Assembly: GCA_029210205.1 (NCBI GenBank)
Contig: JARGOD010000015.1
Coordinates: 1-64,000 of the forward strand
DNA length: 64,000 nucleotides
Direction of reading: 5' to 3'
DNA from: Verrucomicrobiales bacterium
GTDB lineage: Bacteria > Verrucomicrobiota > Verrucomicrobiia > Verrucomicrobiales > DEV007
A program made the position numbers and the translations under genes. The notes beneath the pieces are model-generated. The model had not been told where the DNA came from. It worked only from the letters and a program-made list of their open reading frames with translations, and did not search any database. Shown in pieces: positions 18,410 to 62,750 of the stretch (positions are counted from its first letter, which is position 1; each line of letters opens with the position of its first letter).

Positions 18410-20260
18410 TTATCTTGGCCGCCCCATCGGAGGGCGCATCCCCGGACCGCGTCCTCCGGGGCGATCACCCTTTCCGCTCGAATTCAGAGTCGGAGCATGA
18501 CGTCCCACCAGAAAGGGATTGTCTTCGACCTCTTTTAAAATCTCTGTGTTACGGCGAATGATCTTGGCAAGGGTTTGCTGTTCGACAAGTCGCTGCAGTT
18601 CCTTGTCGAGGTGGTTCTGATACCAGAATCGATCTCCATCTCTTAAGCGAAGAAACTGATCGCGGAGAATTGCGTGGATCGTCTCCCCAACCATGGCACC
18701 ACGAACTGGTCGCTCAGCAAGACCGCCGACCCAGACGTCGATCTCTTCAACGCTGTCATAAACGCTCTCGAATCCATCTTCAAGGTCGTCATCCTTGGTG
18801 AGATCATGAAAATCATCGATAGGTTTAAGCCCGAAGTTTCTCCGGACTTCGTTCAACCCCGGCAACCCATGATCTCTGCCGCGCTGTATATTGAGTGAAG
18901 CTAGATCAAAGCCGCCGGACCCCGGAGGGCCAAATAGGAAGTTACGAACATCGTCGACTAAGAGTGTATCAATTTCCTGCGCCGGCTGCCGCGAAAGCCC
19001 GCGAAGAAGGGGCTCAATTCCGCCTTCATCGGTAATCAATGCCGGATTAAAAAATGCCGACGCAAGATCGAGATGCCCCTCGTCGACTTCACGCATGCGG
19101 CGGTCAAGACGCAGCAACTGCGAGGAGAGCATTGTGTGCCCAAAGCGGTAGGAAGCCGTCGCAAAAACATTCGTAATCCCGGGGTTCGTGTTTTCACGAT
19201 AACCGCGATAGCGGGGAATCGCGCCCTCCCCGAGAAGGAGCGGAAGAAATTCCTGATAAGTGATCACCTGCATTTCCGCTCCGACAATCGAGCGAGCCAC
19301 TTCATAAATCTCATCCCCCTCCAATTCGTCATTCGAACGATTGATGACTGCGGCCCAATAGTTGTGCTCACGAACGAAGAGGGTATGCAGCGCTGTCAGT
19401 CCAGCTTGCTCATTCGCACGAAAATCTCCGGCGAGAAAAAAGTTTGGCGCCTCCGCACTGGGAGCGTTGGGCAAGCCATCAACATTGAAGGGAAGCAAAT
19501 TGCCATCACTCACTTTGAGCCTTCCCGTTCCATCAAGCATCCTCAGTGCTTCAGCACGCTCTTCGTCTGAGCCGTAAACGTTTGAGGCATCGATAAAAGC
19601 GGTGATTTCATTCACCTGCTCACGAACCCCGTTCACTGTTTCACTGAAAGACCGGTCGAGAGAAATCTCAGCCGTGCCTGATCCGGTCGGATCAAAGAAA
19701 GGATCACCCGCTGGCACTTCAATATTGAAGGGTTCAATGAAATCATTGGTCGGGGTTAGGGTGATGTCATGATCCAAAAATTGTCCCCACTGCCATAGGT
19801 AGTCTGAGGCCATACGGCGATTATAGATCGACTCTTCCTGAGCACAGACAGCATTGCTGACGGCTCGCGCACTGGGCCGGTCTGAGCCGGAAGGTGCATC
19901 CACTCCATCGGCGTAATCTACCGTCGTGCGTCGGAGAAAAGGGATGTCGGCCGCTCCCCATTCAGGATGATTCAGATTGTTTCCAAATCCGCTGATGGTT
20001 CGAAATTCCGTCGGGAACTCAATGGTTCTCATTCCCATTTTGACGTCACCCGGCTTCTTCATATTCGGCCCCGACTCATCCGGTCCCTGCCGATTTGATT
20101 TTCGAAAATCATTCGGAGAACCGTCACGCGGACCATTCTGAGCGGTAGCCGAAAGAACGAAAAACGCAGAAATAAAAGCGATGAGAATAAGCACGAGGTC
20201 GAAACGGGAAGCACGACGATGACTCGAAGAGAAGGTGGGGTTTTGATCGATGATTTTCAT
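18410..20260 (-). CDS. Secreted animal-type haem peroxidase
   Basis: 616 residues with a signal peptide (FDLVLILIAFISAFFVLSATAQ). The animal haem peroxidase domain has the distal His loop WGQFLDHDITLTP, the FREHNYWA-like stretch LFVREHNYWAAVI, the proximal His segment ASYRFGHTMLSSQLLRL and the NIQRGRDHGLPGLNEVRR marker. Such enzymes oxidise halides or organic substrates with hydrogen peroxide outside the cell. The N-terminal linker and the C-terminus (GDRPGGRGPGMRPPMGRPR) are Gly/Pro/Arg-rich. An AAGGGGGAAG stretch lies 11-20 bases before the ATG as a possible ribosome-binding site. A two-component system lies directly downstream. Confidence 0.93.
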   Translation of the reverse strand: MKIIDQNPTFSSSHRRASRFDLVLILIAFISAFFVLSATAQNGPRDGSPNDFRKSNRQGPDESGPNMKKPGDVKMGMRTIEFPTEFRTISGFGNNLNHPEWGAADIPFLRRTTVDYADGVDAPSGSDRPSARAVSNAVCAQEESIYNRRMASDYLWQWGQFLDHDITLTPTNDFIEPFNIEVPAGDPFFDPTGSGTAEISLDRSFSETVNGVREQVNEITAFIDASNVYGSDEERAEALRMLDGTGRLKVSDGNLLPFNVDGLPNAPSAEAPNFFLAGDFRANEQAGLTALHTLFVREHNYWAAVINRSNDELEGDEIYEVARSIVGAEMQVITYQEFLPLLLGEGAIPRYRGYRENTNPGITNVFATASYRFGHTMLSSQLLRLDRRMREVDEGHLDLASAFFNPALITDEGGIEPLLRGLSRQPAQEIDTLLVDDVRNFLFGPPGSGGFDLASLNIQRGRDHGLPGLNEVRRNFGLKPIDDFHDLTKDDDLEDGFESVYDSVEEIDVWVGGLAERPVRGAMVGETIHAILRDQFLRLRDGDRFWYQNHLDKELQRLVEQQTLAKIIRRNTEILKEVEDNPFLVGRHAPTLNSSGKGDRPGGRGPGMRPPMGRPR

Positions 20261-20371: not shown

Positions 20372-22441
20372 TCAAAAATCGATCTTTACTCCAAACATTC
20401 CGCCATGCGAGGAATAGCCATCATCTCCAAAGCTCCCAAAATAGCCGGCATTGAAGATCCAGTTAGGCATGGCATCGAATGAAAAGTCAGCGCCAATCTG
20501 CAAAACTGCACGACTCGCATCCGCCCCTTCCGTAGAAATACTGTAGGGGTTCAGGAGACCGGAGTTCGCCAGAGAAACGGTGCTGCTTTCCGCCCCGTCA
20601 AGAGCCTGCCAGAAAGCGACGTCAAGACGCGGCTTTACCCAACCCGGCCGAGTCTCCTGATGACCTGTCACGGTGAGACCGAGCACAGATTGAACCGAGG
20701 TCATGGTCTCATCACTAAAACGCAGACTGGTCGCAGAAGGTCCGGATTCCGAAAATGCATCCAGCGACGTCAAACTTAAGGCCATGCCCAGGTAAGGAGT
20801 TACCCGACCTCTCCCTTCGTCTCCGAAAGAATGATCCCACCCAGTCTGGAAGTAAAACAGTCCCTGATGGCCATTGCGATTTCCTGTCATTTGATTACCC
20901 AGAAAGTCCCGGCGATCTGAGTCCGAATCGAGAAACCCATAGCCTGCGAGAAGATTGGTGAAAAATGAACCATGTGAATACTGAGCGTTCACTCCCGCAT
21001 AAGCAGATCGCGTTTCCAACTCACTACCGAACTGATCCACCCTCGCTTCATTCCGGCCATATCCACCAAATACTCCCAGATTCCAGTATTCTGAAATTTG
21101 CCGTCCAACACCGAATACTACCGTCGTCGAGTCGAACTGCGCATCTGCACGATTCAGCGATGGGTCTTGATCACCACTTCCAACATATCCTGACACAAAT
21201 ACATTTGGATCCTGCGCCGGCACGTCCCAGGCACCGCCTGCCGGAACTTCATTGACGAATAATCCACTCGAAGTCCCCCTTGACGCACTGCCACTTTCCC
21301 GACCTGATACACTGCCTCGGAAACTGGAGAACTGAGCTCCAAAAAGAGAAAACATACGACTGCTCTGCTCCTGCCCAAAGCTGTCCCATCCACTGATCAA
21401 GGTCTGTCCGGAAGTATTTGCCGTGACGGCATTGAGATCTGCAGCTTCGACCTCGTTCAACGCCTTCATGAAATTTCGAAACTCCTCGTTGAGTCCTTTC
21501 GCATTGTCCAATGCCCGGGCATACCCCGTCAAACCGGGAGCTGAAATCAGATTCCCATAGGAATTGAGGCTTTCGAGGTCCACTTCAATAGACTCAAAAT
21601 TTTTCCACTCGATGATTTCTCCATAGAGCGTAATCGAACCCGCGCCCGTATTAGAATTGGCAAGATCGAGTAATTCAGTTCGTTTGCCTTCGCTAACCCC
21701 ACGTATGTTCTCGAACCGAAGCGTGTCTTGATCAGCTCCGCCATCAATTCCCCCCACTATTTGCGAAGGGCCTGACAAAACGACTTTTCCATTCCCCGGA
21801 CCAAGATAAATCGCGCTTTTTCCTCCGATGATGCGCCCTCCTTCGTTTCGCACAACGCCACCGTTTCCCTGCATTAAGTGAACACCGTATTGATTCGTCC
21901 CCTCAACTGTTCCCCGGTTGAGAATAGATCCTTCGAACGAACCGGTTACAAACACGCCATCATTACCCCCGATAATATCCCCGGAATTCGTAAGCTCGCC
22001 GGAGAATGTGCCCGCGCCGAACATAACGCCAATTTGCTCTGCCTTCACCTGCCCGCTGTTGATCGCCATCCCCGAGAAAGTGTGAACAAAGGTGATGCCG
22101 GAAAAAGAACTCATCGCGGTTCCCGCGTGGACAAAAGTGCCGTCAAAAGGGCTCCCAACAAGAATCGCTGTCGACGCACGATCCGTCGCCACGGTAGACG
22201 ATTCGGCAGAAAATCGTAACTCCAGTCCAGATGGAACCGGAGCTATCATCACTCCCATGTGATCGGCCTCAATCCTGCCTTGAAAGAGAACCGTGTCTCC
22301 GGCGTTCAAACCAGAGGGAGAAATCGTGAGATTCGAAACGGTATTGTTTCGGTCTTCAACAACGAACTCTTCCGACCACAGCGGCGTCAAGGCTATAAGA
22401 CAGAGGCAAATGAGATGCCATTTAAGAGGTAAGCCATGCAT
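20372..22441 (-). CDS. Autotransporter with C-terminal beta-barrel
   Basis: 689 residues. A signal peptide (LKWHLICLCLIALTPLWS) is followed by a passenger of degenerate beta-helix repeats around N-x-G and G-x-I motifs (LTNSGDIIGGNDGVFV, ILNRGTVEG, VRNEGGRIIGG). From about residue 400 the C-terminal barrel shows alternating aromatic strands (VFVSGYVGSG, WNLGVFGGYGRNEARV, GSFFTNLLAGYGF, MFGVKIDF) and ends in Phe, as outer-membrane barrels do. It is a type V secretion protein, probably surface-exposed; the passenger is short and shows no protease triad. The upstream 205 bases to glgX are AT-rich and presumably hold divergent promoters. Confidence 0.9.
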   Translation of the reverse strand: MHGLPLKWHLICLCLIALTPLWSEEFVVEDRNNTVSNLTISPSGLNAGDTVLFQGRIEADHMGVMIAPVPSGLELRFSAESSTVATDRASTAILVGSPFDGTFVHAGTAMSSFSGITFVHTFSGMAINSGQVKAEQIGVMFGAGTFSGELTNSGDIIGGNDGVFVTGSFEGSILNRGTVEGTNQYGVHLMQGNGGVVRNEGGRIIGGKSAIYLGPGNGKVVLSGPSQIVGGIDGGADQDTLRFENIRGVSEGKRTELLDLANSNTGAGSITLYGEIIEWKNFESIEVDLESLNSYGNLISAPGLTGYARALDNAKGLNEEFRNFMKALNEVEAADLNAVTANTSGQTLISGWDSFGQEQSSRMFSLFGAQFSSFRGSVSGRESGSASRGTSSGLFVNEVPAGGAWDVPAQDPNVFVSGYVGSGDQDPSLNRADAQFDSTTVVFGVGRQISEYWNLGVFGGYGRNEARVDQFGSELETRSAYAGVNAQYSHGSFFTNLLAGYGFLDSDSDRRDFLGNQMTGNRNGHQGLFYFQTGWDHSFGDEGRGRVTPYLGMALSLTSLDAFSESGPSATSLRFSDETMTSVQSVLGLTVTGHQETRPGWVKPRLDVAFWQALDGAESSTVSLANSGLLNPYSISTEGADASRAVLQIGADFSFDAMPNWIFNAGYFGSFGDDGYSSHGGMFGVKIDF

Positions 22442-41906: not shown

Positions 41907-43154
41907 CTAATCCTCAAACCGCTCAACCAGAAGCGAGGCATTGTGTCCGCCGAATCCAAAGGAATTCGTAAGGGCTTTGTCCACTTTGACCTCGCGGGCC
42001 ACGTTCGGAACGTAGTCGAGATCGCACTGAGGGTCCTGCTCGTCGAGGTTGATCGTTGGGGGAATCACTCCTTCATTGATCGCTTTGACACAGGCGGCCA
42101 GCTCAACACCGCCAGCGGCTCCGAGAAGGTGACCGGTCATAGACTTCGTTGAACTCACGATAAGGCCATCTTTCGCGTAGTCGCCAAAGACACCCTTGAT
42201 TGCTTTAGTCTCGCAGACGTCACCGAGGCCCGTAGAAGTGCCGTGAGCGTTTACGTAGTCTACCTCTTCAGGATTCAGCTTCGCGTGCTTGAGAGCCATG
42301 TCCATGCAGCGACGGGCACCATCGCCTTCAGGATGAGGGGAAGTGAGGTGGTGGGCATCGGCAGATACCCCATAACCGGTCAGTTCGGCATAAATGTGAG
42401 CACCGCGCTTTTTCGCATGCTCAAGTTCTTCGATCACGGCGACACCGGCTCCTTCGCCCATGACAAATCCGTCGCGACCGACGTCAAAAGGACGAGAGGC
42501 AGCCTCTGGATCATCATTGCGCATACTGAGCGCTTTCATATTTCCAAATCCGGCAAGCCCCATAGGACAAATCGTTGATTCAGAGCCACCTGCGACAAAG
42601 ATATCGGCATCACCGAACTTAATCATGCGCCAGGCCTCACCAATGTTGTGGTTCGACGTCGCGCAAGCCGTGACGATACACATGTTCGGTCCACGAAGAT
42701 TGTACTCCATGGAAACCATCCCGCTCGAAATGTTCGCGATCATCATGGGGATCGTGAAGGGGGAAACGCGGCTTGGAGATTTCTCAAGAAGGTTCACGTG
42801 CTGTCCTTCGAGCGTCATGAGACCGCCTATGCCACTGCCGACCATGCAACCGAATCGATCAAGATCGACGGCCTCAAGATCAACGCCACAGTCTTTCATC
42901 GCCATCACCGATGCAGCCATTCCAAGCTGGGCAAATCGGTCCGCGCGACGAGCATCTTTTGGATTCGTGAAAAATCCTTTGGGGTCAAAATCGCGAACTT
43001 CTCCGGCAATCTTGCAATCATAGTCGGCCAGAGAAGGGTCGGCAATACGTCCGATTCCACTTTTTCCTGCGACGAGATTCGACCAGAAAGCATCCAGATC
43101 GTTACCGACCGGAGACACTAAACCCATTCCTGTGATGACGACGCGACGTTCCAT
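41907..43154 (-). CDS. fabF: 3-oxoacyl-[acyl-carrier-protein] synthase II
   Basis: 415 residues. Catalytic triad: Cys164 in VTACATSNHN, His304 in VNAHGTSTGLGD and His342 in SMTGHLLGAAGG. N-terminal MERRVVITGMGLVSPVGND and the C-terminal TNSFGFGGHNASLLVERF are typical. It condenses malonyl-ACP with acyl-ACP in fatty acid elongation in the cytoplasm. The acyl carrier protein gene usually next to it is not here. It starts 86 bases from the small zinc-ribbon membrane protein gene on the same strand and may be read by its own promoter. Confidence 0.97.
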   Translation of the reverse strand: MERRVVITGMGLVSPVGNDLDAFWSNLVAGKSGIGRIADPSLADYDCKIAGEVRDFDPKGFFTNPKDARRADRFAQLGMAASVMAMKDCGVDLEAVDLDRFGCMVGSGIGGLMTLEGQHVNLLEKSPSRVSPFTIPMMIANISSGMVSMEYNLRGPNMCIVTACATSNHNIGEAWRMIKFGDADIFVAGGSESTICPMGLAGFGNMKALSMRNDDPEAASRPFDVGRDGFVMGEGAGVAVIEELEHAKKRGAHIYAELTGYGVSADAHHLTSPHPEGDGARRCMDMALKHAKLNPEEVDYVNAHGTSTGLGDVCETKAIKGVFGDYAKDGLIVSSTKSMTGHLLGAAGGVELAACVKAINEGVIPPTINLDEQDPQCDLDYVPNVAREVKVDKALTNSFGFGGHNASLLVERFED

Positions 43155-43240: not shown

Positions 43241-43480
43241 CTAAATTTCGATCACTTTTTCACGCTCATTCATTGCCCCGCAACGCGGGCATTCGGCGAG
43301 ATCATGATCGGAGGGGTCTTCGAAGACATGGTCACAAATGCCACAGATCACAAAAAATTTTCTACGACGGTTTTCGCGACCTTTCTGAAATATCTCGGCA
43401 GCGACCCACGCGAAAAATACGGAGCAAAGGATGATGGCCAGAAATACGGCAATCATGCCGTCGAGAGTGACGCGAAACAT
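43241..43480 (-). CDS. Small membrane protein with zinc ribbon
   Basis: 79 residues from the ATG at 43480, two bases after the stop of the TonB-like gene; a longer frame starts within that gene and is not favoured. A membrane helix (MIAVFLAIILCSVFFAWVAAEIF) near residues 9-31 is followed by an RRRK motif and a cytoplasmic zinc ribbon, CGICDHVFEDPSDHDLAECPRCG (two CxxC pairs, with the second as CPRC). Function unknown. Its tight spacing makes it the last member of the GTPase-Exb operon. Confidence 0.82.
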   Translation of the reverse strand: MFRVTLDGMIAVFLAIILCSVFFAWVAAEIFQKGRENRRRKFFVICGICDHVFEDPSDHDLAECPRCGAMNEREKVIEI

Positions 43481-43482
43481 GA

Positions 43483-44226
43483 TCAGTCTTTTGTTCGAAT
43501 TGCCAGCCAACCGGAGCTGGATCGTGCCTCAGGAAGATAACGCAGAGTGGATTCCACGACCTGCTTAATTTCTCCCTCCGCCTGAGAGTCGAGCTCACTC
43601 TCTACTTCTTCCACTTTCACCATACCCTCTTCGTCGACGACGAGCTTAAGCCTCATTGCAGGGATCTGCTCAGCAAGGCCGAGGTAATCCTCGAGGATAG
43701 ACCACGGCGCGACCTCACGGTGCATCAGTTCGCCCTGGGCAGTTAAAATCACAGGGTTCTCGAAAGTTTTCTCAGAAGTAGAAAAACCAGCCCCAATCAC
43801 AGCCTCTGAGGGAGGCATCGTCCATGAAAACGCGAGTTCTTCCGGACTCATTTCAGTAGTTTGGAAAGAAGGCGTAAATCTCACGGGCAACTCATCGATC
43901 GAAATTTGAACTCCTGTGGCCTCGGAGGGAGGGAGAAGAAAGGTCATCCGATCGCTAACACGTTGCAATAATGATCTGATATTGGGATCAGCAGGATCCA
44001 TCAAAGAAATCGTGTCTGCTCTTGGTTTCTCGCGCGTCGGTGATGGATAGACAACCTGAAAGAGATAAAATCCGGAACCGTGAATAACCACAGAGAAAAC
44101 AAGGAAAGCAGTCAAATGAACCCATGACCGCCGATTTTTCACCCAGTTGAATATGGTCGGATTTGGATCTTCCTCCTCATCAAAAATTGATGGAGAAGTC
44201 TCGGCTCTCTGAAAACCTTTCCACAT
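43483..44226 (-). CDS. TonB-like energy transducer, divergent
   Basis: 247 residues. A cytoplasmic head (residues 1-35) precedes a single helix, VHLTAFLVFSVVIHGSGFYLFQVV, as in TonB/TolA, then a periplasmic part. The C-terminal stretch MRLKLVVDEEGMVKVEEVESELDSQAEGEIKQVVESTLRYLPEARS resembles the TonB C-terminal fold by eye (beta-alpha-beta with a small linker). The Pro-rich spacer usual in TonB is not present. It is six bases behind exbD, so a proton-driven trimer of ExbB/ExbD/TonB-like is likely. It is the candidate output arm of the complex. Confidence 0.72.
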   Translation of the reverse strand: MWKGFQRAETSPSIFDEEEDPNPTIFNWVKNRRSWVHLTAFLVFSVVIHGSGFYLFQVVYPSPTREKPRADTISLMDPADPNIRSLLQRVSDRMTFLLPPSEATGVQISIDELPVRFTPSFQTTEMSPEELAFSWTMPPSEAVIGAGFSTSEKTFENPVILTAQGELMHREVAPWSILEDYLGLAEQIPAMRLKLVVDEEGMVKVEEVESELDSQAEGEIKQVVESTLRYLPEARSSSGWLAIRTKD

Positions 44227-44232
44227 CTTTTC

Positions 44233-44637
44233 TCAGCTGGTTTCCTGTTGAGTCGCGAACGACAGTTCAAATCCCCGCTGCAAAATGAAGCGCGATATGT
44301 TCATCACCGTTCCGTAGCTGACGGACTCATCGCCGAGAAGAATCACTTCCTTCGATCGTTCTGAGCCTTTATCCAGCTTCATCCCCAGCTGCTCCAAATT
44401 TATTCTTTCATCATTAAAATAAATCTCCGAGGTCTTTCCGGGAATTAAGGTGATGATGTGAGCATCCTCCGCAGACGGGAGCGCAGAACTGGATCGGGGT
44501 AGCGAAACATCGACTCCTGATTTGAGGACAAGGTTTGAACCAAACAGGAAAAAGATAAGGAGGAGCAAGACCACATCGACCAGCGGCGAAGTGTAAAGCA
44601 TCCCGGAACGATCGCTCAATGTAGATTCCAGTTTCAA
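44233..44637 (-). CDS. exbD: ExbD/TolR biopolymer transport protein
   Basis: 134 residues. N-terminal cytoplasmic stub, single helix SPLVDVVLLLLIFFLFGSNLVL with the conserved Asp (D in LVDVV) that carries protons, and the periplasmic domain (DVSLPRSSSALP to VILLGDESVSYGTVMNISRFILQRGFELSFATQQ) typical of ExbD/TolR. It forms the dimer inside the ExbB pentamer and couples proton flow to the TonB-like arm. It is 12 bases behind exbB and 6 before the TonB-like gene. Confidence 0.93.
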   Translation of the reverse strand: MKLESTLSDRSGMLYTSPLVDVVLLLLIFFLFGSNLVLKSGVDVSLPRSSSALPSAEDAHIITLIPGKTSEIYFNDERINLEQLGMKLDKGSERSKEVILLGDESVSYGTVMNISRFILQRGFELSFATQQETS

Positions 44638-44649
44638 AGCATCAGCGAC

Positions 44650-45363
44650 TTACTCTTTCGATGAAGACGGGTCTTCCTCATCGACTTCAGGAAGCTCGAT
44701 TTCTTCGACCTGCTCAAGCGGCTTATCAGGCCTGATTGAAATGATGTCGGTCGGTTGCGTTCGAAGATCACATATCGTGTTCACGATTTCGATCCCGGCG
44801 CTCTCCATATCATAGATGATGCTTTTCGCGTAAGCCCGAAGGTGTGAGTAGAAAACGAAAGCTGGCACAGCAACCATGAGACCGGCTGCAGATGTGATCA
44901 ACGCTTCGTAAACGCCCTGCGAGATTTCGGCAACCGTGGCAAAACCACCAATGGCATTAATCTGGACAAATGTATCGATAAGACCCAGGACGGAGCCAAG
45001 CAATCCTATGAGCGGAGCGATGTAAGCCACCGTAAGGAGAACCGAAAGATGCTTTTCTAACTTCGGGACTTCAAGTTGCCCGCTTTCCTGAACAACCTCT
45101 TTCAACTCAGATCGCGAAGCTGAGTAGCGGCGGATCGCAGAATGAATCACTCTTGCAACAGGCCCGGGAGTGGAGGCACATTCGGAAAGAGCCTCAGCAT
45201 ACGCCTTGTTCTTGATTAGGTTCCTCAAACCAAAAAGAAGATCGCCTACATCGATTCTTGCACGATGAAAATAGAACAGCCTCTCTAGAAAAATCGCAAT
45301 CGCAATGATGGAGCAGCCCAGAAGCAGCCACATCAAAGGTCCGCCTTTCGTGATTAAATCCAT
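44650..45363 (-). CDS. exbB: ExbB/TolQ/MotA proton channel family protein
   Basis: 237 residues with three membrane helices: GPLMWLLLGCSIIAIAIFLERLFYF near residues 7-30, LLTVAYIAPLIGLLGSVLGLIDTFVQ near 107-132 and ALITSAAGLMVAVPAFVFYSHLRAYA near 155-180. The MotA_TolQ_ExbB signature GLLGSVLGLIDTF is intact. The C-terminus is acidic (EQVEEIELPEVDEEDPSSSKE). It forms the inner-membrane pentamer that moves protons. The stop of the frameshift-extended roadblock gene is 9 bases upstream. Confidence 0.95.
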   Translation of the reverse strand: MDLITKGGPLMWLLLGCSIIAIAIFLERLFYFHRARIDVGDLLFGLRNLIKNKAYAEALSECASTPGPVARVIHSAIRRYSASRSELKEVVQESGQLEVPKLEKHLSVLLTVAYIAPLIGLLGSVLGLIDTFVQINAIGGFATVAEISQGVYEALITSAAGLMVAVPAFVFYSHLRAYAKSIIYDMESAGIEIVNTICDLRTQPTDIISIRPDKPLEQVEEIELPEVDEEDPSSSKE

Positions 45364-45372
45364 GGTGATAAA

Positions 45373-45469
45373 TTACTCAAACAATTCGCGGGAGGGAAAG
45401 ACCATTAACATACCTTCCCGCACCGGCAAAGCGTCTATTTTGAAGGTCATTTCAGGACCAGTTCCCGGC
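45373..45469 (-). other. Out-of-frame continuation of the roadblock gene (frameshift tail)
   Basis: In the frame one base forward of the roadblock gene, the sequence reads on past its stop: GPFYF/EPGTGPEMTFKIDAL, then VREGMLMVFPSRELFE, ending at TAA 45373-45375, 9 bases before the exbB ATG. The join lies in two T4 runs on the minus strand (45478-45481 and 45472-45475) just before TGA 45470-45472. Deleting one T, or a +1 slip at TTT-TGA, joins the frames. This makes the gene spacing match the tight operon. Confidence 0.55.
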
Positions 45470-46621
45470 TCAAAAGTAAAACGGTCCTGAGCTGGAAGCC
45501 TCTTCCTCTTCAGCTTCACTTTCAGCACCGACTGATCTGGGATCAGTCCCTTCGCCCTCATCGTCGTCAAAATCGTCAAAATCTAATTCGAAGGCGGATG
45601 AGTCTTCATCAATCTCAAAGACTGTCGGACTTTTTCCACTCTCTTCACTGACTTCCTCCTCATCAATTTCAAAGACAACTTCAGACTCCTTCTCGCCCCC
45701 ATTGTCGTTGATTGCCCCGGCTGCAGCGATGGTCTCAGAGGAATTTGCCTCATCTTCGTCCTCTAATTCAAAGATGGATTCATTGAGCGTAGCCTCATCT
45801 TCAAATTCCGAATCCTCACTCTCTTCTTCTGTTTCAAATGGCGAATCAATCACGGCACCAGTCGAATCTTCAATCACAACTTCCGGACTACCGTCATCGA
45901 GAAACTCGATGACTTCCTTTGGCTGTTCCAATTCGGACTCTGCGCCCGTTTCAGTCACTTGCTCAGAACTATCTTCCTCGAAAATCATCTCGGGATAGTC
46001 ATCGTCGAGATTACCCTTTTCCACCTCAGTTCCAGACGCTGCGCTTTCATCAGTATGAGAAGGAACATCTACATCCTGAGCGTAAGTGCTCGCGTCAGGA
46101 GCAGGAGAGATACTGTCCCCGGTAAGGCTCCGGAGCGATTGAGGATGGACATGATGCTCTTCGAGAGGAGGAACAACCTTGATTCCCTCAAGCAACTTAG
46201 CTAACCCGGGACGGACTTGGCGTGCTTTTTCACGAACGACTCCGACAGGCACTGGCACCGTCGAAACTCCAACGAGAACAAAACGGTCCATAACCTCGGC
46301 GAGATAGACGGCCCTCTCGTTGCTCTGATGAAAACTTTCAATATTTCCCGTGCTTCCCAACTCTCTAACGAGTGCATTCATGGCTGCGCTGGCGCCGGCA
46401 ACGAGTGCTGAGATGATATCGACCATCACCTCAGCCTCCGATGAAATGCCACTCACGAGAGCACCACTTCTCTCAACCACAAGAGCTGTCTCCAATTCCG
46501 CTCCCTCTGCAAAATCTTGCAAAATTGCATCCACACGGACCGCCAGATCGGCACTGATCTCCAACGGGATCGCTGGAGACACATCCGGGTGTTCGTTTGG
46601 ATTCTGTTCTTGAGGGTCCAT
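45470..46621 (-). CDS. Roadblock/LC7 domain protein with long acidic tail
   Basis: 383 residues from the ATG at 46621 (MDPQEQNPNE). Residues about 20-150 form a roadblock/LC7 domain (AVRVDAILQDFAEGAELETALVVERSGALVSG, DIISALVAGASAAMNALVRELG, DRFVLVGVSTVPVPVG), similar to MglB-type partners of small GTPases. The rest is an acidic, Ser-rich disordered tail (runs of Glu, Asp and Ser). It starts 22 bases after the GTPase gene. The 3' end may be frameshifted (see 45373-45469), adding about 33 residues. It is likely a GTPase-activating or targeting factor for the MglA-like protein, by analogy. Confidence 0.82.
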   Translation of the reverse strand: MDPQEQNPNEHPDVSPAIPLEISADLAVRVDAILQDFAEGAELETALVVERSGALVSGISSEAEVMVDIISALVAGASAAMNALVRELGSTGNIESFHQSNERAVYLAEVMDRFVLVGVSTVPVPVGVVREKARQVRPGLAKLLEGIKVVPPLEEHHVHPQSLRSLTGDSISPAPDASTYAQDVDVPSHTDESAASGTEVEKGNLDDDYPEMIFEEDSSEQVTETGAESELEQPKEVIEFLDDGSPEVVIEDSTGAVIDSPFETEEESEDSEFEDEATLNESIFELEDEDEANSSETIAAAGAINDNGGEKESEVVFEIDEEEVSEESGKSPTVFEIDEDSSAFELDFDDFDDDEGEGTDPRSVGAESEAEEEEASSSGPFYF

Positions 46622-46643
46622 GGAAATAAAAGAGTTAGACTGA

Positions 46644-47303
46644 CTAGCCCTGCGTCGCAGTGATACGTTCAGAAGAGGTCCGTTTCGCGGCAAGTGCTGC
46701 CGGGTGCCCCTCCCTTCTAACGGTCTCGCCGGAAAATCCTTTGAGAATCATTCGTGTTACGTAGTCCAGCGTCGCAAAAACCTGATAACCAGAAGCGGCA
46801 CTGGCGAGAAAAGAAGCCTTCGATACCTTGAGCATTTCGTCCAACTCCTGAGGAGGAATTGCGCCAGGGATATCCCGTTTGTTGAACTGAAAAATAAATG
46901 GGATCGACTTCGGTGAAATTCGGTTCTCTTCCAGACACTGAAAACAATCCTCCAAAGCCTCCACATTCGCCTCCCGCCGCACCGGATCAGAATCGGCTAC
47001 AAAAACCACCGCATCAGCCCCCGCAAGAACGGAGCGGCGAGTCTCTCTCATGACCCGCTGACCAGGAACAGTATACAGCTGAAACTTCACCTCATGCCCT
47101 GCAATTTTCGTCGAATTAATCGGCAGAAAATCGAAGGATATGGTGCGGTTCTGCTCAGTCTCTACCGAAATCATATCTCCCCGCCAACGAGGGTCGAGTC
47201 TTCGGTGAATGTATTGAAGGTTTGTTGTTTTGCCGCCGCGCGGAGGGCCGCAATAGACCACTTTAAACTGAACTTCTCCACTTTCCTTCCGAATGAGAGC
47301 CAT
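46644..47303 (-). CDS. MglA-type small Ras-like GTPase
   Basis: 219 residues from the ATG at 47303 (MALIRKESGEVQFKVVYCG); the longer frame has no good start. G1 is GPPRGGKT (19-26), G3 is LYTVPGQR (77-83), G4 is NKRD (141-144), and ASFLASAASG is G5. TVPGQ instead of DTAGQ is typical of MglA. Such GTPases set cell polarity and drive motility or secretion machinery by switching between GTP and GDP, with roadblock proteins as partners. Both flanking genes encode roadblock-domain proteins, so the trio is a complete module. The Exb genes follow downstream. Confidence 0.93.
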   Translation of the reverse strand: MALIRKESGEVQFKVVYCGPPRGGKTTNLQYIHRRLDPRWRGDMISVETEQNRTISFDFLPINSTKIAGHEVKFQLYTVPGQRVMRETRRSVLAGADAVVFVADSDPVRREANVEALEDCFQCLEENRISPKSIPFIFQFNKRDIPGAIPPQELDEMLKVSKASFLASAASGYQVFATLDYVTRMILKGFSGETVRREGHPAALAAKRTSSERITATQG

Positions 47304-47308
47304 CGCAA

Positions 47309-48943
47309 TTACTCGTTTAATTTGTATATATTTCGAGCGACAAGGATGAGCTTCTCTCGCACTCCAGGGCCAAAATTCGATGACTGATGGTTCACCGTGA
47401 CGCAACAATCACCTTCAAGGAAAAGGCTAACGGTTCCACGGTCAGTCTGCAGGGTGAACGCCCGAGCCTCGGGAAGTCCCGTCAGTTTCGCTAAATTTCG
47501 AATCGCATCGACCATCTCGCGGGCTTCGTCACCGAGGCGGCTTTGTTCGTTTCTTGAAGCTTGAACAAGCTTAACCGGAGTTGCCAGAGCGCAGGCGCAA
47601 ACACCGTCAAAGGCAACCACTTGTCTCGCCACCTTGGCCAAAGTGAAAGAATCGTCGGAGGAAAAAATGGCACGGAACTCCAGATCCTTAAAATTCACCT
47701 CCATTTCACCCGGCATTGCGGAGTTTGAGGAATTGGGTGCCAATTCTTCTTCTTCAACCTTGAGTGATGGCTCACTAAGCGGTGCAGACGAGGAATCGCG
47801 AAGCGAATTGAATTCCTTTGCCCCGGTATCGGCCGGAGGAACTGGAGTCCTGAAATCTGATGGCTTTTCAACGGAGAAACTAATTGCCGGCGTCTTCGGG
47901 GATACCTCGTTAGCAGGAGTGGGCTCCGGCGGAATTTCTTTAGATGAATCTGCAGCAGACCGCTTCGATTCTGCTTCGTTCACAGAGTCGGTAGCCACCT
48001 TCTTGTTAGTGCTGGCGTCATTCTTCTTGAGCATGTCGCCCAGGCCGGCGACTTCACCCGTTATTGCTTCTGAGCTGGTCTCGGAGTCAGCGTCAAACAA
48101 CGCACCCCAGGCTGATTCATCTCCTTCAGACTCTGGAAAAGGAATCTCTGAATCTTCTTCTGCCTTCGTGGAAAATAATGTCGAGAAACTTTCATCGCTG
48201 TCGAATGGGTTTTCCTTAAAGGGAGAAGACTTGGACTCAGCAGCGGCTGCGGTCATATCTCCAAACGGATTTTCCGCCTTAGGCTCTTTAGAAGGCATCG
48301 CCGCAGCTTTATCTTCACGTGAAGGATCCCCAAAAGCACCTCCTTCGTCTTTCTGAGAGATCTTTGGAGGCAGGGAATCAGCAAACCCTCCGGAGAATCC
48401 AGTATCTGCTTCAGGGACTTTTTGTGCCTTCGTTTCAATCTCATCGGACTCAGGAGACCAAAAGGGATTGTCCTCACTTTCGTTGACCGCAACCTCGGAA
48501 CCGGCAGATTCCGGCATACCGAAACCCGGCGCGCCAAAGGGAGTACCGGGGGCATCAAAAATCGAGCTCCCCACTTTTGCAGCCGGCTGGGCTTTACCAA
48601 GTTTCATTGGAAGCGTCACCGTTGAATCGTTAAGCGGCGTAATTTCTGCATCGAAGAGCTCCGGACATTGCTGAAAGATCGCTGAAAGTCGCACATCAGT
48701 CGATCCGTCTTTTCCCATGAGAATGCGTATCTCTTTCTCCATTGGAAGGCTTCCACTTGCCACAATCGCCGGAGGTATGAAAGGCAGTAACTCACTCACT
48801 AAATAAGCCTGACCTTCCTCGGTGGCTTTGGTCTGCCCAAGAGGAGAGTTCGCACGCTCCCCTGCCTCACCTTCGTGCTCAACCCAATCAGCAGCGGGAT
48901 CACCGTCTTCTTCAGAAAAAAGGTTTCTCAAAGTAAAGGACAT
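47309..48943 (-). CDS. Long acidic protein with C-terminal roadblock-like domain
   Basis: 544 residues. The first 100 residues (VSELLPFIPPAIVASGSLPMEKEIRILMGKDG, LSAIFQQCPELFDAEI) form an unfamiliar folded segment. Residues about 120-430 are low-complexity, rich in Glu, Ser, Asp, Pro and Lys, with repeated EENPF/FSTLF-like short motifs, probably disordered. The C-terminal 110 residues (DSFTLAKVARQVVAFDGVCACALATPVKLVQ to VREKLILVARNIYKLNE) read like a roadblock/LC7 domain. It starts the GTPase operon and lies five bases before the mglA-like gene. Its folded ends joined by a long acidic linker suggest a scaffold. Confidence 0.78.
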   Translation of the reverse strand: MSFTLRNLFSEEDGDPAADWVEHEGEAGERANSPLGQTKATEEGQAYLVSELLPFIPPAIVASGSLPMEKEIRILMGKDGSTDVRLSAIFQQCPELFDAEITPLNDSTVTLPMKLGKAQPAAKVGSSIFDAPGTPFGAPGFGMPESAGSEVAVNESEDNPFWSPESDEIETKAQKVPEADTGFSGGFADSLPPKISQKDEGGAFGDPSREDKAAAMPSKEPKAENPFGDMTAAAAESKSSPFKENPFDSDESFSTLFSTKAEEDSEIPFPESEGDESAWGALFDADSETSSEAITGEVAGLGDMLKKNDASTNKKVATDSVNEAESKRSAADSSKEIPPEPTPANEVSPKTPAISFSVEKPSDFRTPVPPADTGAKEFNSLRDSSSAPLSEPSLKVEEEELAPNSSNSAMPGEMEVNFKDLEFRAIFSSDDSFTLAKVARQVVAFDGVCACALATPVKLVQASRNEQSRLGDEAREMVDAIRNLAKLTGLPEARAFTLQTDRGTVSLFLEGDCCVTVNHQSSNFGPGVREKLILVARNIYKLNE

Positions 48944-49292
48944 GGCAATGGAACGTTAAATGTCAGCATTCTGCTGTTTCTCTCGCAATTACCAAAACTT
49001 ACCAGATCTCATGCGAGTTATGAATATTTTAATAAATCCAGATTAGAATGATGAAGTTGATTTATCAAGGTATTTTTAATATTAAGAAATATTAAATAAA
49101 AACAGAGATCATGTCAGAAGACTTCAGACATGTGTGCATTCCAATAAGAAGGCTGATTGGATTGCTGAATTAAATTTTCGTAAGCGAAAGCTTCAAGCAG
49201 AGTCAACGCCGTCGCGTCGTGGCGATCCGCAACGCATCCGTAAATAGAGGTCACACCAATCGCGAAACATCACTCCTCACCGCTCAAACACA
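48944..49292. promoter_or_regulatory. AT-rich upstream region of the GTPase operon
   Basis: About 350 bases between the operon and the CPBP gene, without a convincing open frame. On the minus strand TTGATA (49063-49068) and TAATCT (49040-49045) with a 17-base spacer form a plausible sigma-70 promoter about 97 bases before the operon ATG. The right part (49200-49290) is GC-richer and featureless. Confidence 0.4.
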
Positions 49293-60629: not shown

Positions 60630-62750
60630 CTATTCCTCCTTCTCTACTGCCGGAGCCTTGCCGGAGGACATGACTTTGGGATTCTCTCGATCAGCTGCCA
60701 TGCGGAAACCGGTCCAGAAGTTTCGCTCATCAGCCGATTCAGCGGCGCGACGGGCTGTCAGTTCGAATCCTGATTTTGTGGCAAAGGAAGCCCCCCGCTT
60801 GATTGGAACCTGTTTGTCCGGTGAATCAGGATGGATATCCCTTGTCGCAGTCCATTCGCTCACATTACCCGCAAGGCCGATGACGCCATAGCGACTTTCA
60901 TCAGCCGGGATTGCATCCACTGGATTCCAAAAACGGTAACCGTCAACGGAAGCCTCACGGGTCATTTCCGTCGTCTCATGGTCGAGGCCGGAATTAAAAT
61001 TTTCCGGCTGAATCTCATTGCCCCAGGGAAACAAGTTGCCGGATCGACCGCGTGCCGCTTTTTCCCACTCCTGCTCGGTTGGAAGGCGACCTCCGCGCCA
61101 CTTTGCGTAGGCATTGGCGTCCCACCAATCAACGCCAATAACGGGACAGTTGGGGTCAATCTCACCACCGTAGAACTTCCCGCCCTTTTGAGCTTTTTCG
61201 TAAATCTCGTCCCACTTCTCAGGCTTATAAGTGACCTTGGAATCGGGCTCATCGGGATGAGCGAGCTTTTTCTCTTTGCCGGGATTTTTCGACAGATCAG
61301 CGAGAAAGGCGGCATACTCGGCAATCGTCACTTCATGCTGGCCGATCCAGAACTCGGAAGTTTCGACCTCTTCCCCGCTCTGATACGGAAACATCCCTGC
61401 CGGAATCTTTGAAAGCGCACTGAGATCCCGGACCTCAGGCTTCCCGCCGAGGAAAATGTAGGCAAGCGCAAATCCCGCGAGCATCAACAATCCGAATCCA
61501 CTCCCAACGAGAATCGCAGTGCGGTCGGTTTTTTGCTCATTCAGCTTTGCAATCTCGGCACCGGTAAGATCATCTTCGGGGTCACCGGGAGAAAGCACCC
61601 GCGTGAGACCGTCCATGGAATTCACCGCATCAATACGGTCAGACCCGAGGCGCTCAACAAGAAGATGCAATTGCGGGTCGCCACCACTGCTCTTCAGAAA
61701 CGGGGCGATTGCATCGGCGAGGAGTTCCATTTGCTGACGCTCTTCTTCGACCGTGAGCGATGCTCCGCGGCCACGAACCGGATTTGCGATCCGTGGCTGC
61801 CCTCCACGGAGCATGAGAATACTTTGATCAGAAATAAGGCGGTGAGACATTCCGTTATCCCGCAGATAAATGAGCGCTCCGGCACTGGCTTCGAGAATTT
61901 TCCAGAGGACTGATTCATCGAGTTCACTGCGGCGACGGGCGAGATCGGAAAGACTCGGCGCATCGACAAGTTCCAGCGTGTAAAAGTTCACGCCCAGCTC
62001 CTGATCACATTCATACACGAGCGAAATCGAGGGGTGGTTCACCGAGGCACGCGCACTGGCCTCATTCACAAATCCCTGCACCCATCGGATGTCTTTACGA
62101 TGCTTCCGATACAGGGTTTTCAGCGCTACTTTTCGCCCTATCGAAGTCTGTTCCGCCTCGTAGAGCGCAAAATTAGCGTCCTGCTGAATTTCACGAAGCA
62201 GTTTGTAGTCGCCCAACCGCGTTCCGACTGGCAAAGCCTCTTCGGGCAACTGGACTGGAGCCGTCTCATGCGGCTCGATTGTCATTTCGGTTTCTTCTGT
62301 TGCCGGAGCTGTTTCTATTTCGGGAGGGGGGGCACTAACCGGACCGGGCTCCGTATGCTGCGTCACTTCTTCTGGCACACTCGCTGGTTGGATCGCCGAC
62401 TCGAACCACTCCAGCAGCACGCCGCGGTTCACTGGTTTAAAAAAGAGACGATCAACCTCCATGACCCTCGGGTAAAAAGCCGTCATATCCTCACGACTGC
62501 ACATCATAGAAGGAAAGAGACCAATTTCGATGTGGAGATGGTCGCGAAGATCGAGAATCTCTTCGCCGGTCGCCGCATCGATCCCTGCAATCATCATCGT
62601 CAACCTTCGAAGCTCTTTCACTTTATCCCAGGCTTCAGGGGCACTGGCGGCTTCAATAACCGTGGTCGCACGTTCTTTCAGTATCGAAAGAATCGCAGCC
62701 CGGTCTTCGGCAGCCGGATCGATCAGTAAAATGGTGACTTCCTGTGACAT
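60630..62750 (-). CDS. Pseudo-receiver, pseudokinase and FGE-fold membrane protein
   Basis: 706 residues. Residues 1-115 are receiver-like (VTILLIDPAAEDRAAILSIL), but where the phospho-acceptor Asp belongs stands Ile (MMIAGIDAATGEE); a Lys is kept in KPVN. A Pro/Glu-rich linker follows, then a protein kinase fold from about 170 (LGDYKLLREIQQDANFALYEAEQTSIGRKVALKTLY): the Lys is kept, but the Gly-rich loop, HRD Asp (MSHRLISDQSIL) and DFG (RIANPVRG) are lost. A helix (AILVGSGFGLLMLAGFALAYIFLG) leads to an FGE-type periplasmic domain (PVIGVDWWDANAYAKWRGGRLPTEQEWEKAARG, IGLAGNVSEWTATRD) with no catalytic Cys. It is 12 bases after the TPR gene. Confidence 0.88.
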   Translation of the reverse strand: MSQEVTILLIDPAAEDRAAILSILKERATTVIEAASAPEAWDKVKELRRLTMMIAGIDAATGEEILDLRDHLHIEIGLFPSMMCSREDMTAFYPRVMEVDRLFFKPVNRGVLLEWFESAIQPASVPEEVTQHTEPGPVSAPPPEIETAPATEETEMTIEPHETAPVQLPEEALPVGTRLGDYKLLREIQQDANFALYEAEQTSIGRKVALKTLYRKHRKDIRWVQGFVNEASARASVNHPSISLVYECDQELGVNFYTLELVDAPSLSDLARRRSELDESVLWKILEASAGALIYLRDNGMSHRLISDQSILMLRGGQPRIANPVRGRGASLTVEEERQQMELLADAIAPFLKSSGGDPQLHLLVERLGSDRIDAVNSMDGLTRVLSPGDPEDDLTGAEIAKLNEQKTDRTAILVGSGFGLLMLAGFALAYIFLGGKPEVRDLSALSKIPAGMFPYQSGEEVETSEFWIGQHEVTIAEYAAFLADLSKNPGKEKKLAHPDEPDSKVTYKPEKWDEIYEKAQKGGKFYGGEIDPNCPVIGVDWWDANAYAKWRGGRLPTEQEWEKAARGRSGNLFPWGNEIQPENFNSGLDHETTEMTREASVDGYRFWNPVDAIPADESRYGVIGLAGNVSEWTATRDIHPDSPDKQVPIKRGASFATKSGFELTARRAAESADERNFWTGFRMAADRENPKVMSSGKAPAVEKEE

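Follow-up and report, generated by a model that had tools for sequence, protein, structure and literature searches.

The closest described relatives of the locus considered here are the MglA-MglB polarity modules of Myxococcus xanthus and Thermus thermophilus, the Agl-Glt system of Myxococcus gliding, and the ExbBD-TonB and TolQR-TolA energisers. Group 1 of the MglA proteins is defined by an arginine finger adjacent to the G2 threonine and by TVPGQ in G3; a few members of this group combine one GTPase with two roadblock proteins, and the 2014 survey of Wuichet and Sogaard-Andersen placed Verrucomicrobia in group 5 and not in group 1 (PMC4316618). The effectors of M. xanthus MglA include AglR and GltJ (PMC12288465). 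In the literature searched, no published cluster of MglA with ExbB/ExbD genes in Verrucomicrobia was found.

The window, a stretch of 64,000 nucleotides from a Verrucomicrobiales bacterium, carries seven intact genes on the minus strand, namely RB1, MglA, RB2, ExbB, ExbD, a TonB-like gene and a zinc-ribbon gene, in the order given by the original prediction. The gaps had been described as mostly of 2-22 bases. From RB1 onward they are 5, 22, 106, 12, 6 and 2 nt, and the description fits all of them except that between RB2 and exbB, which had been put at 9 nt by accepting a frameshifted tail of RB2. The tail is not real: the relatives share the stop after (S)GPFYF, and the sequence downstream of it is not conserved as protein, so the gap is 106 nt. 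A further 86 nt separate the zinc-ribbon gene from fabF (41907..43154, minus strand), which in most relatives directly follows the exb cluster.

The MglA gene (46644..47303, minus strand) codes for a small Ras-like GTPase of 219 aa with a P-loop, R53-T54, TVPGQ (Q82) and NKxD. It matches the Arf, Roc and Ras families of Pfam (Arf/Ras-type GTPases), and its best profile matches, with E of about 1e-73 to 1e-68, are the MglA structures of M. xanthus and T. thermophilus. In an alignment of 22 sequences all four GTPase motifs, G1-G4, are present, and G24, K25, T26, R53, T54, P80, G81, Q82, N141, K142 and D144 are invariant. The arginine finger R53 thus adjoins the G2 threonine T54, and G3 reads TVPGQ in the window sequence. 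The genome has one copy of mglA, flanked by the RB1 and RB2 genes; an RB2-like neighbour was found at 56 of 80 loci. By its motifs, its coupling to roadblock genes and its profile matches we assign this putative active GTPase to the group-1 type.

RB1 (47309..48943, minus strand; 544 aa) is conserved at both ends. A conserved N-terminal region of about 120 aa is followed by a long middle part, acidic and of low complexity, in which NPF/FWSP-type motifs occur, and then by a roadblock (MglB-like) domain, which forms the last ~130 aa. Pfam did not recognise RB1 as a roadblock protein, and profile-profile comparison of RB1 with RB2 gave no match. The profile search of PDB found the Robl_LC7 chain 7f8f (E 2e-5), and the model of the C-terminal domain (pLDDT 86) had M. 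xanthus MglB as its top PDB match in Foldseek with probability 1.00. Search and model together assign a predicted roadblock/MglB fold to the C-terminus.

RB2 (45470..46621, minus strand; 383 aa) has an N-terminal Roadblock/LC7 domain, which exceeds the Pfam cut-off for Robl_LC7 (PF03259; 24.5 bits vs 23) and matches the MglB model NF052242 (E 4e-11). Its acidic tail of ~230 aa contains repeated (S/T)(P/I/V)FE(I/L/T) motifs and then the conserved C-terminal (S)GPFYF. In relatives with a complete RB2 gene this ending and the stop stand at the same place across the genus, with L038 as the sole exception, and in two loci of other families (L042 and L043) RB2 is tailless. Between G010 and G021, two genomes that have lost mglA, the gene is under purifying selection, with dN/dS of about 0.2-0.3. 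Both roadblock proteins are candidates for GAP activity on MglA, and RB1-MglA-RB2 is probably a cell-polarity switch.

The second group of genes begins with a proton-channel subunit of the ExbB/TolQ type (44650..45363, minus strand; 237 aa; PF01618, E 2e-27), 80-92% identical within the genus. The ExbD/TolR-type subunit (44233..44637, minus strand; 134 aa, TTG start; PF02472, E 3e-19) keeps the proton-carrying Asp within PLVDVV in the alignment. The TonB/TolA-like transducer (43483..44226, minus strand; 247 aa) has a short cytoplasmic N-terminus, one TM helix and a periplasmic linker. The SxxxH of its helix (S45, H49) is invariant in the genus and lost in family f4 and in Akkermansia. The C-terminal domain is predicted as beta-beta-alpha-beta; its matches are weak, chiefly to the C-terminal domains of HasB, TonB and TolA, and the best have E 0.14 (fold) and E 0.27 (sequence). 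The full-length model, of low confidence overall, is too uncertain except in the TM helix and this domain. The last gene (43241..43480, minus strand) codes for a small membrane protein of 79 aa with a C-terminal zinc ribbon (CxxC...CxxC) and about 91% column identity in the genus. The cluster contains no tolB or pal and stands beside fabF and a sigma factor gene.

How far does this gene order extend? The full seven-gene order occurs in at least eight other species of the genus, whose MglA proteins are only 49-70% identical. A lack of conservation outside close relatives, which the original prediction had named as a refutation, was not what the search found. The MglA module is linked to exbB-exbD-tonB-zinc-ribbon in families f1, f4, f10, f18 and f129 and in lineages L100 and L118, that is, in five families of the class and two further lineages, and in two orientations (convergent in f10; same strand in f1, f18 and f129). 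The linkage is far above chance (Poisson P about 4e-6, family level), and in G633 (L191) and in L118 mglA lies directly beside exbB without RB2. The neighbourhood of MglA and exb is real and ancient, and part of it is conserved. Chance within one genus was considered as the source of the linkage and is ruled out by its recurrence in further families.

Such a neighbourhood might be inherited by slow rearrangement and have no functional meaning. The PQQ/CPBP genes upstream and fabF and the sigma factor gene downstream are also kept within the genus, and in other families fabF and a guaB-like gene lie inside the same block. However, the linkage has outlasted both divergence at the level of the class and a switch of orientation, beyond what is usual for neutral gene order, and we consider this explanation very improbable. 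Recurrent linkage above chance is also expected from a functional tie, and we counted it against a reading of the locus as two modules.

The functional tie in the original prediction was a joint GTPase-motor device. Here MglA-GTP would recruit or activate ExbBD and so drive the TonB-like rod, by analogy with AglRQS/GltJ in Myxococcus gliding. The myxobacterial effectors named above are a precedent, and the recurrent linkage, the adjacency of mglA and exbB without RB2, and the ExbD Asp and TonB SxxxH retained in the window all fit such gating. However, fabF is linked equally often, and in G264 the linkage has outlived the motor residues: ExbD there has no proton Asp and the TonB-like protein no SxxxH.

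The distribution of the genes also speaks against a dedicated joint device. In 37 relatives ExbB is present in 35, the zinc ribbon in 33, the TonB-like protein in 30 and MglA in 24, and the exb cluster is kept in MglA-less genomes such as Akkermansia and at least three species of the genus. In one clade (G001, G009, G014, G019 and relatives) the locus is split exactly between the modules, and G016, from a neighbouring lineage, has a scar of the RB2 C-terminus upstream of exbB. In G013 mglA has decayed to a pseudogene and in G010 it has been deleted; RB1, RB2 and exb are retained in both. Because exb occurs in almost all relatives, with or without MglA, and the losses of mglA spare exb and the roadblock genes, inheritance argues against the joint device, although the linkage behind it is real and old and the Agl-Glt precedent stands. 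Overall, we regard gating of the motor by MglA as unlikely.

The losses of mglA raise another question: could the roadblock proteins themselves be the link? RB1 and RB2 might be MglA-independent scaffolds which position the Exb motor, with MglA as an optional regulator. After the loss of mglA both remain beside exb in G010 and G015, as does RB2 in G021, and the purifying selection on RB2 and its conserved GPFYF end would suit this role. On the other side, the roadblock genes of the split clade travel with MglA and not with exb, RB2 can be tailless, and a recent loss of mglA may simply precede a later loss of the roadblock genes. Such scaffolding seems to us improbable, more so than gating by MglA.

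The original prediction had named a promoter and terminator between the roadblock and exbB genes as evidence against it, and this came true in part. On the minus strand no terminator was found between RB2 and exbB; a conserved promoter element is present (45403..45429, minus strand), with TTGCCG and an extended -10 TG(T)TAATGG, and its position is conserved across the genus. The gap element TTG(G/C)C...TG(T)GnTA also precedes exbB where the upstream neighbours are unrelated. Its strict form occurs in 9 of 23 aligned upstream regions, against 0.005 expected from shuffles, and a looser form in 16 of 23 against 0.3; the copy of the window fits the looser form only and is not flagged by a single-sequence scan. 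By this conservation exbB has its own predicted promoter, which is a further point against gating. Upstream of RB1 lies a second predicted promoter (49018..49068, minus strand), TTGATA-17-TAATCT with a conserved downstream element (TTATTAAAATATTCATAA), and both parts are kept in 17 aligned upstream regions. Separate promoters and separate inheritance make neighbours likelier than one machine.

What could then be the output of the polarity switch? In families f10 and f18 and in L104 an MshEN+T2SSE ATPase gene of the type IV pilus/T2SS kind lies immediately upstream of RB1-MglA. Of the 23 relatives with intact mglA, 15 have a PilB-like ATPase in a pseudopilin locus, and of the 14 without it none does. 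This co-occurrence holds only within the order, and shared descent, genome size and completeness are confounders. No pilus gene adjoins mglA in the window's own genus. A universal partnership of MglA with the PilB-like ATPase at class level was rejected, since 14 genomes outside the order have a related PilB-like ATPase but gave no match to MglA.

We therefore favour, with a probability of about 0.6, two neighbouring modules, an MglA polarity switch, whose target is probably a pilus-like machine, and a core ExbBD-TonB energiser. This reading is supported by the motifs and folds of MglA, RB1 and RB2, the exbB promoter, the wider distribution of exb, the place at which the split clade is broken, the losses of mglA, the links to MshEN+T2SSE and PilB-like ATPases, and G264. 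MglA-GTP would mark one cell pole. The roadblock proteins, both of MglB type, would act as homodimers or heterodimers which stimulate GTP hydrolysis and confine MglA-GTP in space. The long acidic tails, that of RB2 ending in GPFYF, may anchor them to other polar proteins, and the output would most likely be a type IV pilus/T2SS-like machine. ExbB, ExbD, the TonB-like protein and the zinc ribbon would form a core proton-driven inner-membrane energiser, in which the TonB-like rod pulls an outer-membrane partner. The two modules share an ancient neighbourhood which includes fabF and, in some lineages, the guaB-like gene, and read-through co-transcription is possible.

These loci would supply MglA polarity modules from across the class, and cell polarity has received little study in this phylum. 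They offer unusually large roadblock partners, natural losses of mglA can serve as controls, and the two candidate outputs, pilus-like machine and Exb motor, are separable in straightforward experiments. Should the motor link prove real, GTPase control of proton-driven envelope motors would be a recurring principle and not a myxobacterial speciality.

Which of the known systems does the locus resemble? With M. xanthus MglA-MglB(-MglC) and T. thermophilus MglAB it shares the single-domain GTPase, the arginine beside the G2 threonine, TVPGQ and the coupling to roadblock genes. In contrast to both, the locus has large roadblock proteins of 383 and 544 aa with long acidic linkers; the RB1 of relatives reaches about 900-990 aa, and its N-terminal region is conserved.

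With ExbBD-TonB and TolQR-TolA the exb cluster shares the subunit types, the ExbD Asp and the TonB SxxxH; a C-terminal beta-beta-alpha-beta domain of their kind is predicted, with weak matches. Unlike in these systems, the TonB-like protein is below Pfam recognition, an extra zinc-ribbon protein is present, and no TolB/Pal or receptor gene is adjacent.

GltJ of Myxococcus carries a zinc ribbon. The Agl-Glt system (AglRQS, GltG, GltJ, MglA) has in common with our locus an ExbB/ExbD-type motor, a TonB-like transducer, the MglA GTPase and a zinc-ribbon element. Two of its features, a second TolR-like subunit and a fused zinc finger/TonB protein, are absent here, which is again at odds with gating: Agl-Glt combines one TolQ-like with two TolR-like subunits, having AglQ plus AglS, whereas this cluster has a single ExbD, and its zinc ribbon belongs to a small membrane protein of its own. 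The envelope complex GltA-K is also absent from the cluster. It is doubtful, slightly more so than gating in general, that a GTPase-roadblock switch of Verrucomicrobiota gates an ExbBD-TonB force transducer as a second, compact and linked motor which evolved apart from Agl-Glt. In Myxococcus mglA lies outside the agl/glt clusters, whereas here it stands in one run with the exb genes.

All seven genes of the predicted run are present on the minus strand of the window, in the order RB1, mglA, RB2, exbB, exbD, a tonB-like gene and a zinc-ribbon gene, where RB1 and RB2 are the roadblock proteins on either side of MglA. The gaps along the run measure 5, 22, 106, 12, 6 and 2 nt, and fabF lies 86 nt beyond the zinc-ribbon gene. 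Inside the run only the 106-nt gap between RB2 and exbB is roomy enough for a promoter. Pfam matched the GTPase, RB2, ExbB and ExbD and recognised neither RB1 nor the TonB-like protein. The frameshifted tail that the original prediction placed after RB2 does not exist: the RB2 stop after (S)GPFYF is kept genus-wide, even where the next gene is not exbB. Elsewhere in the window, the protein at 18410-20260 aligns along most of its length with the animal haem peroxidase family (E 1e-158) and adjoins an autotransporter-domain protein (20372-22441), and another protein (60630-62750) combines a kinase-like domain with a sulfatase-modifying-factor domain.

The RB1 C-terminal domain gave a confident predicted model (pLDDT 86), whose closest solved fold is Myxococcus MglB, and its profile matches a Robl_LC7 chain (E 2e-5). 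MglA has an Arg adjoining the G2 Thr together with TVPGQ, the marks of MglA group 1 (PMC4316618); among solved structures it is most closely related to MglA of Myxococcus and Thermus. Judging from the family, MglA would switch between GTP and GDP forms, roadblock dimers would act as GAPs and position it, like MglB in Myxococcus, and MglA-GTP would stimulate a pilus-like machine. In RB2 (45470-46621) and its relatives the conserved C-terminal (S)GPFYF comes after a long acidic tail in which PFE/IFEL/VFEI motifs recur, and which looks like a docking tail.

The MglA module has a further frequent kind of neighbour: an MshEN+T2SSE ATPase gene stands immediately upstream of it in families f10 and f18 and at locus L104, and PilB/PilT-like genes follow MglA-RB2 at two Zixibacteria loci. 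The window's own genome has a locus (L183, contig C36, 747-9773) with a response regulator, a 719-aa PilB-like ATPase, a T2SSF protein and several N-methylated pilin-like proteins. Counting this genome and its order, such a PilB-like locus occurs in 15 of the 23 genomes with intact mglA versus none of the 14 without it, a co-occurrence that breaks down outside the order and for which shared descent and genome size are confounders.

As its family suggests, ExbBD would power movement of the TonB-like rod from the proton gradient. The TonB-like C-terminus is predicted to be beta-beta-alpha-beta, with weak HasB/TonB/TolA domain matches, and SxxxH in the membrane helix is invariant within the genus. 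The proton-carrying Asp of ExbD is replaced by Asn in family f4 (L094, L179), by C in G287 (L180, f18) and by E in L118, and SxxxH is missing in f4 and Akkermansia. Where these residues are gone the exb genes persist, though the chemistry of the motor may be altered or in decay.

How is this arrangement distributed within the genus? Sampling 37 genomes among relatives turned up MglA in 24. The order CPBP-RB1-MglA-RB2-ExbB-ExbD-TonB-Zn recurs in G004, G006, G007, G008, G011, G018, G022 and G023. G013 shows it too, except that its mglA is broken; in others contig edges conceal parts of it. The exb cluster is located elsewhere in a clade (support 99) that contains G001, G003, G009, G012, G014 and G019, and the MglA module is separate from it in G001, G009, G012, G014 and G019; MglA was not found in G003, which is 53% complete. 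Genome G016 joins this clade at low support (65) and retains the last RB2 codons directly upstream of exbB, a scar indicating that the adjacency of MglA module and exb cluster is probably ancestral in the genus. Natural losses of mglA include a deletion in G010, which has left a remnant between RB1 and RB2 (L079:4514-4678), and a frameshifted pseudogene in G013 (L045:9226-10000), both roadblock genes being retained in each; G021 and G015 likewise have no mglA. Between G010 and G021, RB2 is still under purifying selection (dN/dS 0.2-0.3) and exbB is almost frozen.

Alignment of 23 loci upstream of exbB revealed the element TTG(G/C)C, 13-16 nt, TGTGnTA. Its strict form occurs at 9 loci (0.005 expected from shuffles) and a looser form, to which the window's own copy belongs, at 16 (0.3 expected). 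Since the element also precedes exbB behind unrelated upstream genes (L059, L063, L064, L065, L067, L069), it belongs to exbB. RB1 has a separate, conserved and different promoter, directly downstream of which lies a conserved AT-rich element, TTATTAAAATATTCATAA (49018-49039), possibly an operator. Of the promoter and terminator that would divide the run, a conserved promoter element is present, and no terminator was found between the modules on this strand, so read-through is possible.

Conservation of the linkage beyond close relatives was upheld. Across the class the MglA module was found in 97 of 384 genomes. It lies within ~6 kb of the exb cluster in G264 (f4), seven f10 genomes, G287 (f18) and G633 (f129), and likewise at L100 and L118. 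Under a uniform-placement model that ignores shared descent, 10 linked genomes were seen versus 0.24 expected and 4 families versus 0.1, counts in which the best ExbB match is possibly not the orthologue in many families. The exb genes follow the module on the same strand in f4, f18, f129 and L118, and converge on it in f10 and L100 with fabF between, plus a guaB-like gene in f10.

Does this linkage reflect one machine? The exb cluster is spread across the order, including Akkermansia, where no MglA match was found, and by this distribution is old. That it does without MglA, and MglA without its proximity, argues against a single machine, as does the tie of fabF to the exb cluster about as often as MglA. 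The linkage in G264, which persists despite Asn in place of the ExbD Asp and a TonB-like protein lacking SxxxH, points the same way.

One MglA accompanied by two roadblock genes is an arrangement already on record (PMC4316618). Here the roadblock partners are large and tailed and MglA is of group-1 type in this phylum, which makes the module a variant of that kind. The nearest precedent for the GTPase-controlled envelope motor of the original prediction is Agl-Glt, the Myxococcus gliding motor, in which AglR and GltJ are among the effectors of MglA (PMC12288465; PMC3169522); one of its defining features, a pair of TolR-like subunits, is lacking from the window cluster, which has a single ExbD. 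We file the run as a variant MglA module beside an ExbBD-TonB energiser rather than an Agl-Glt machine.
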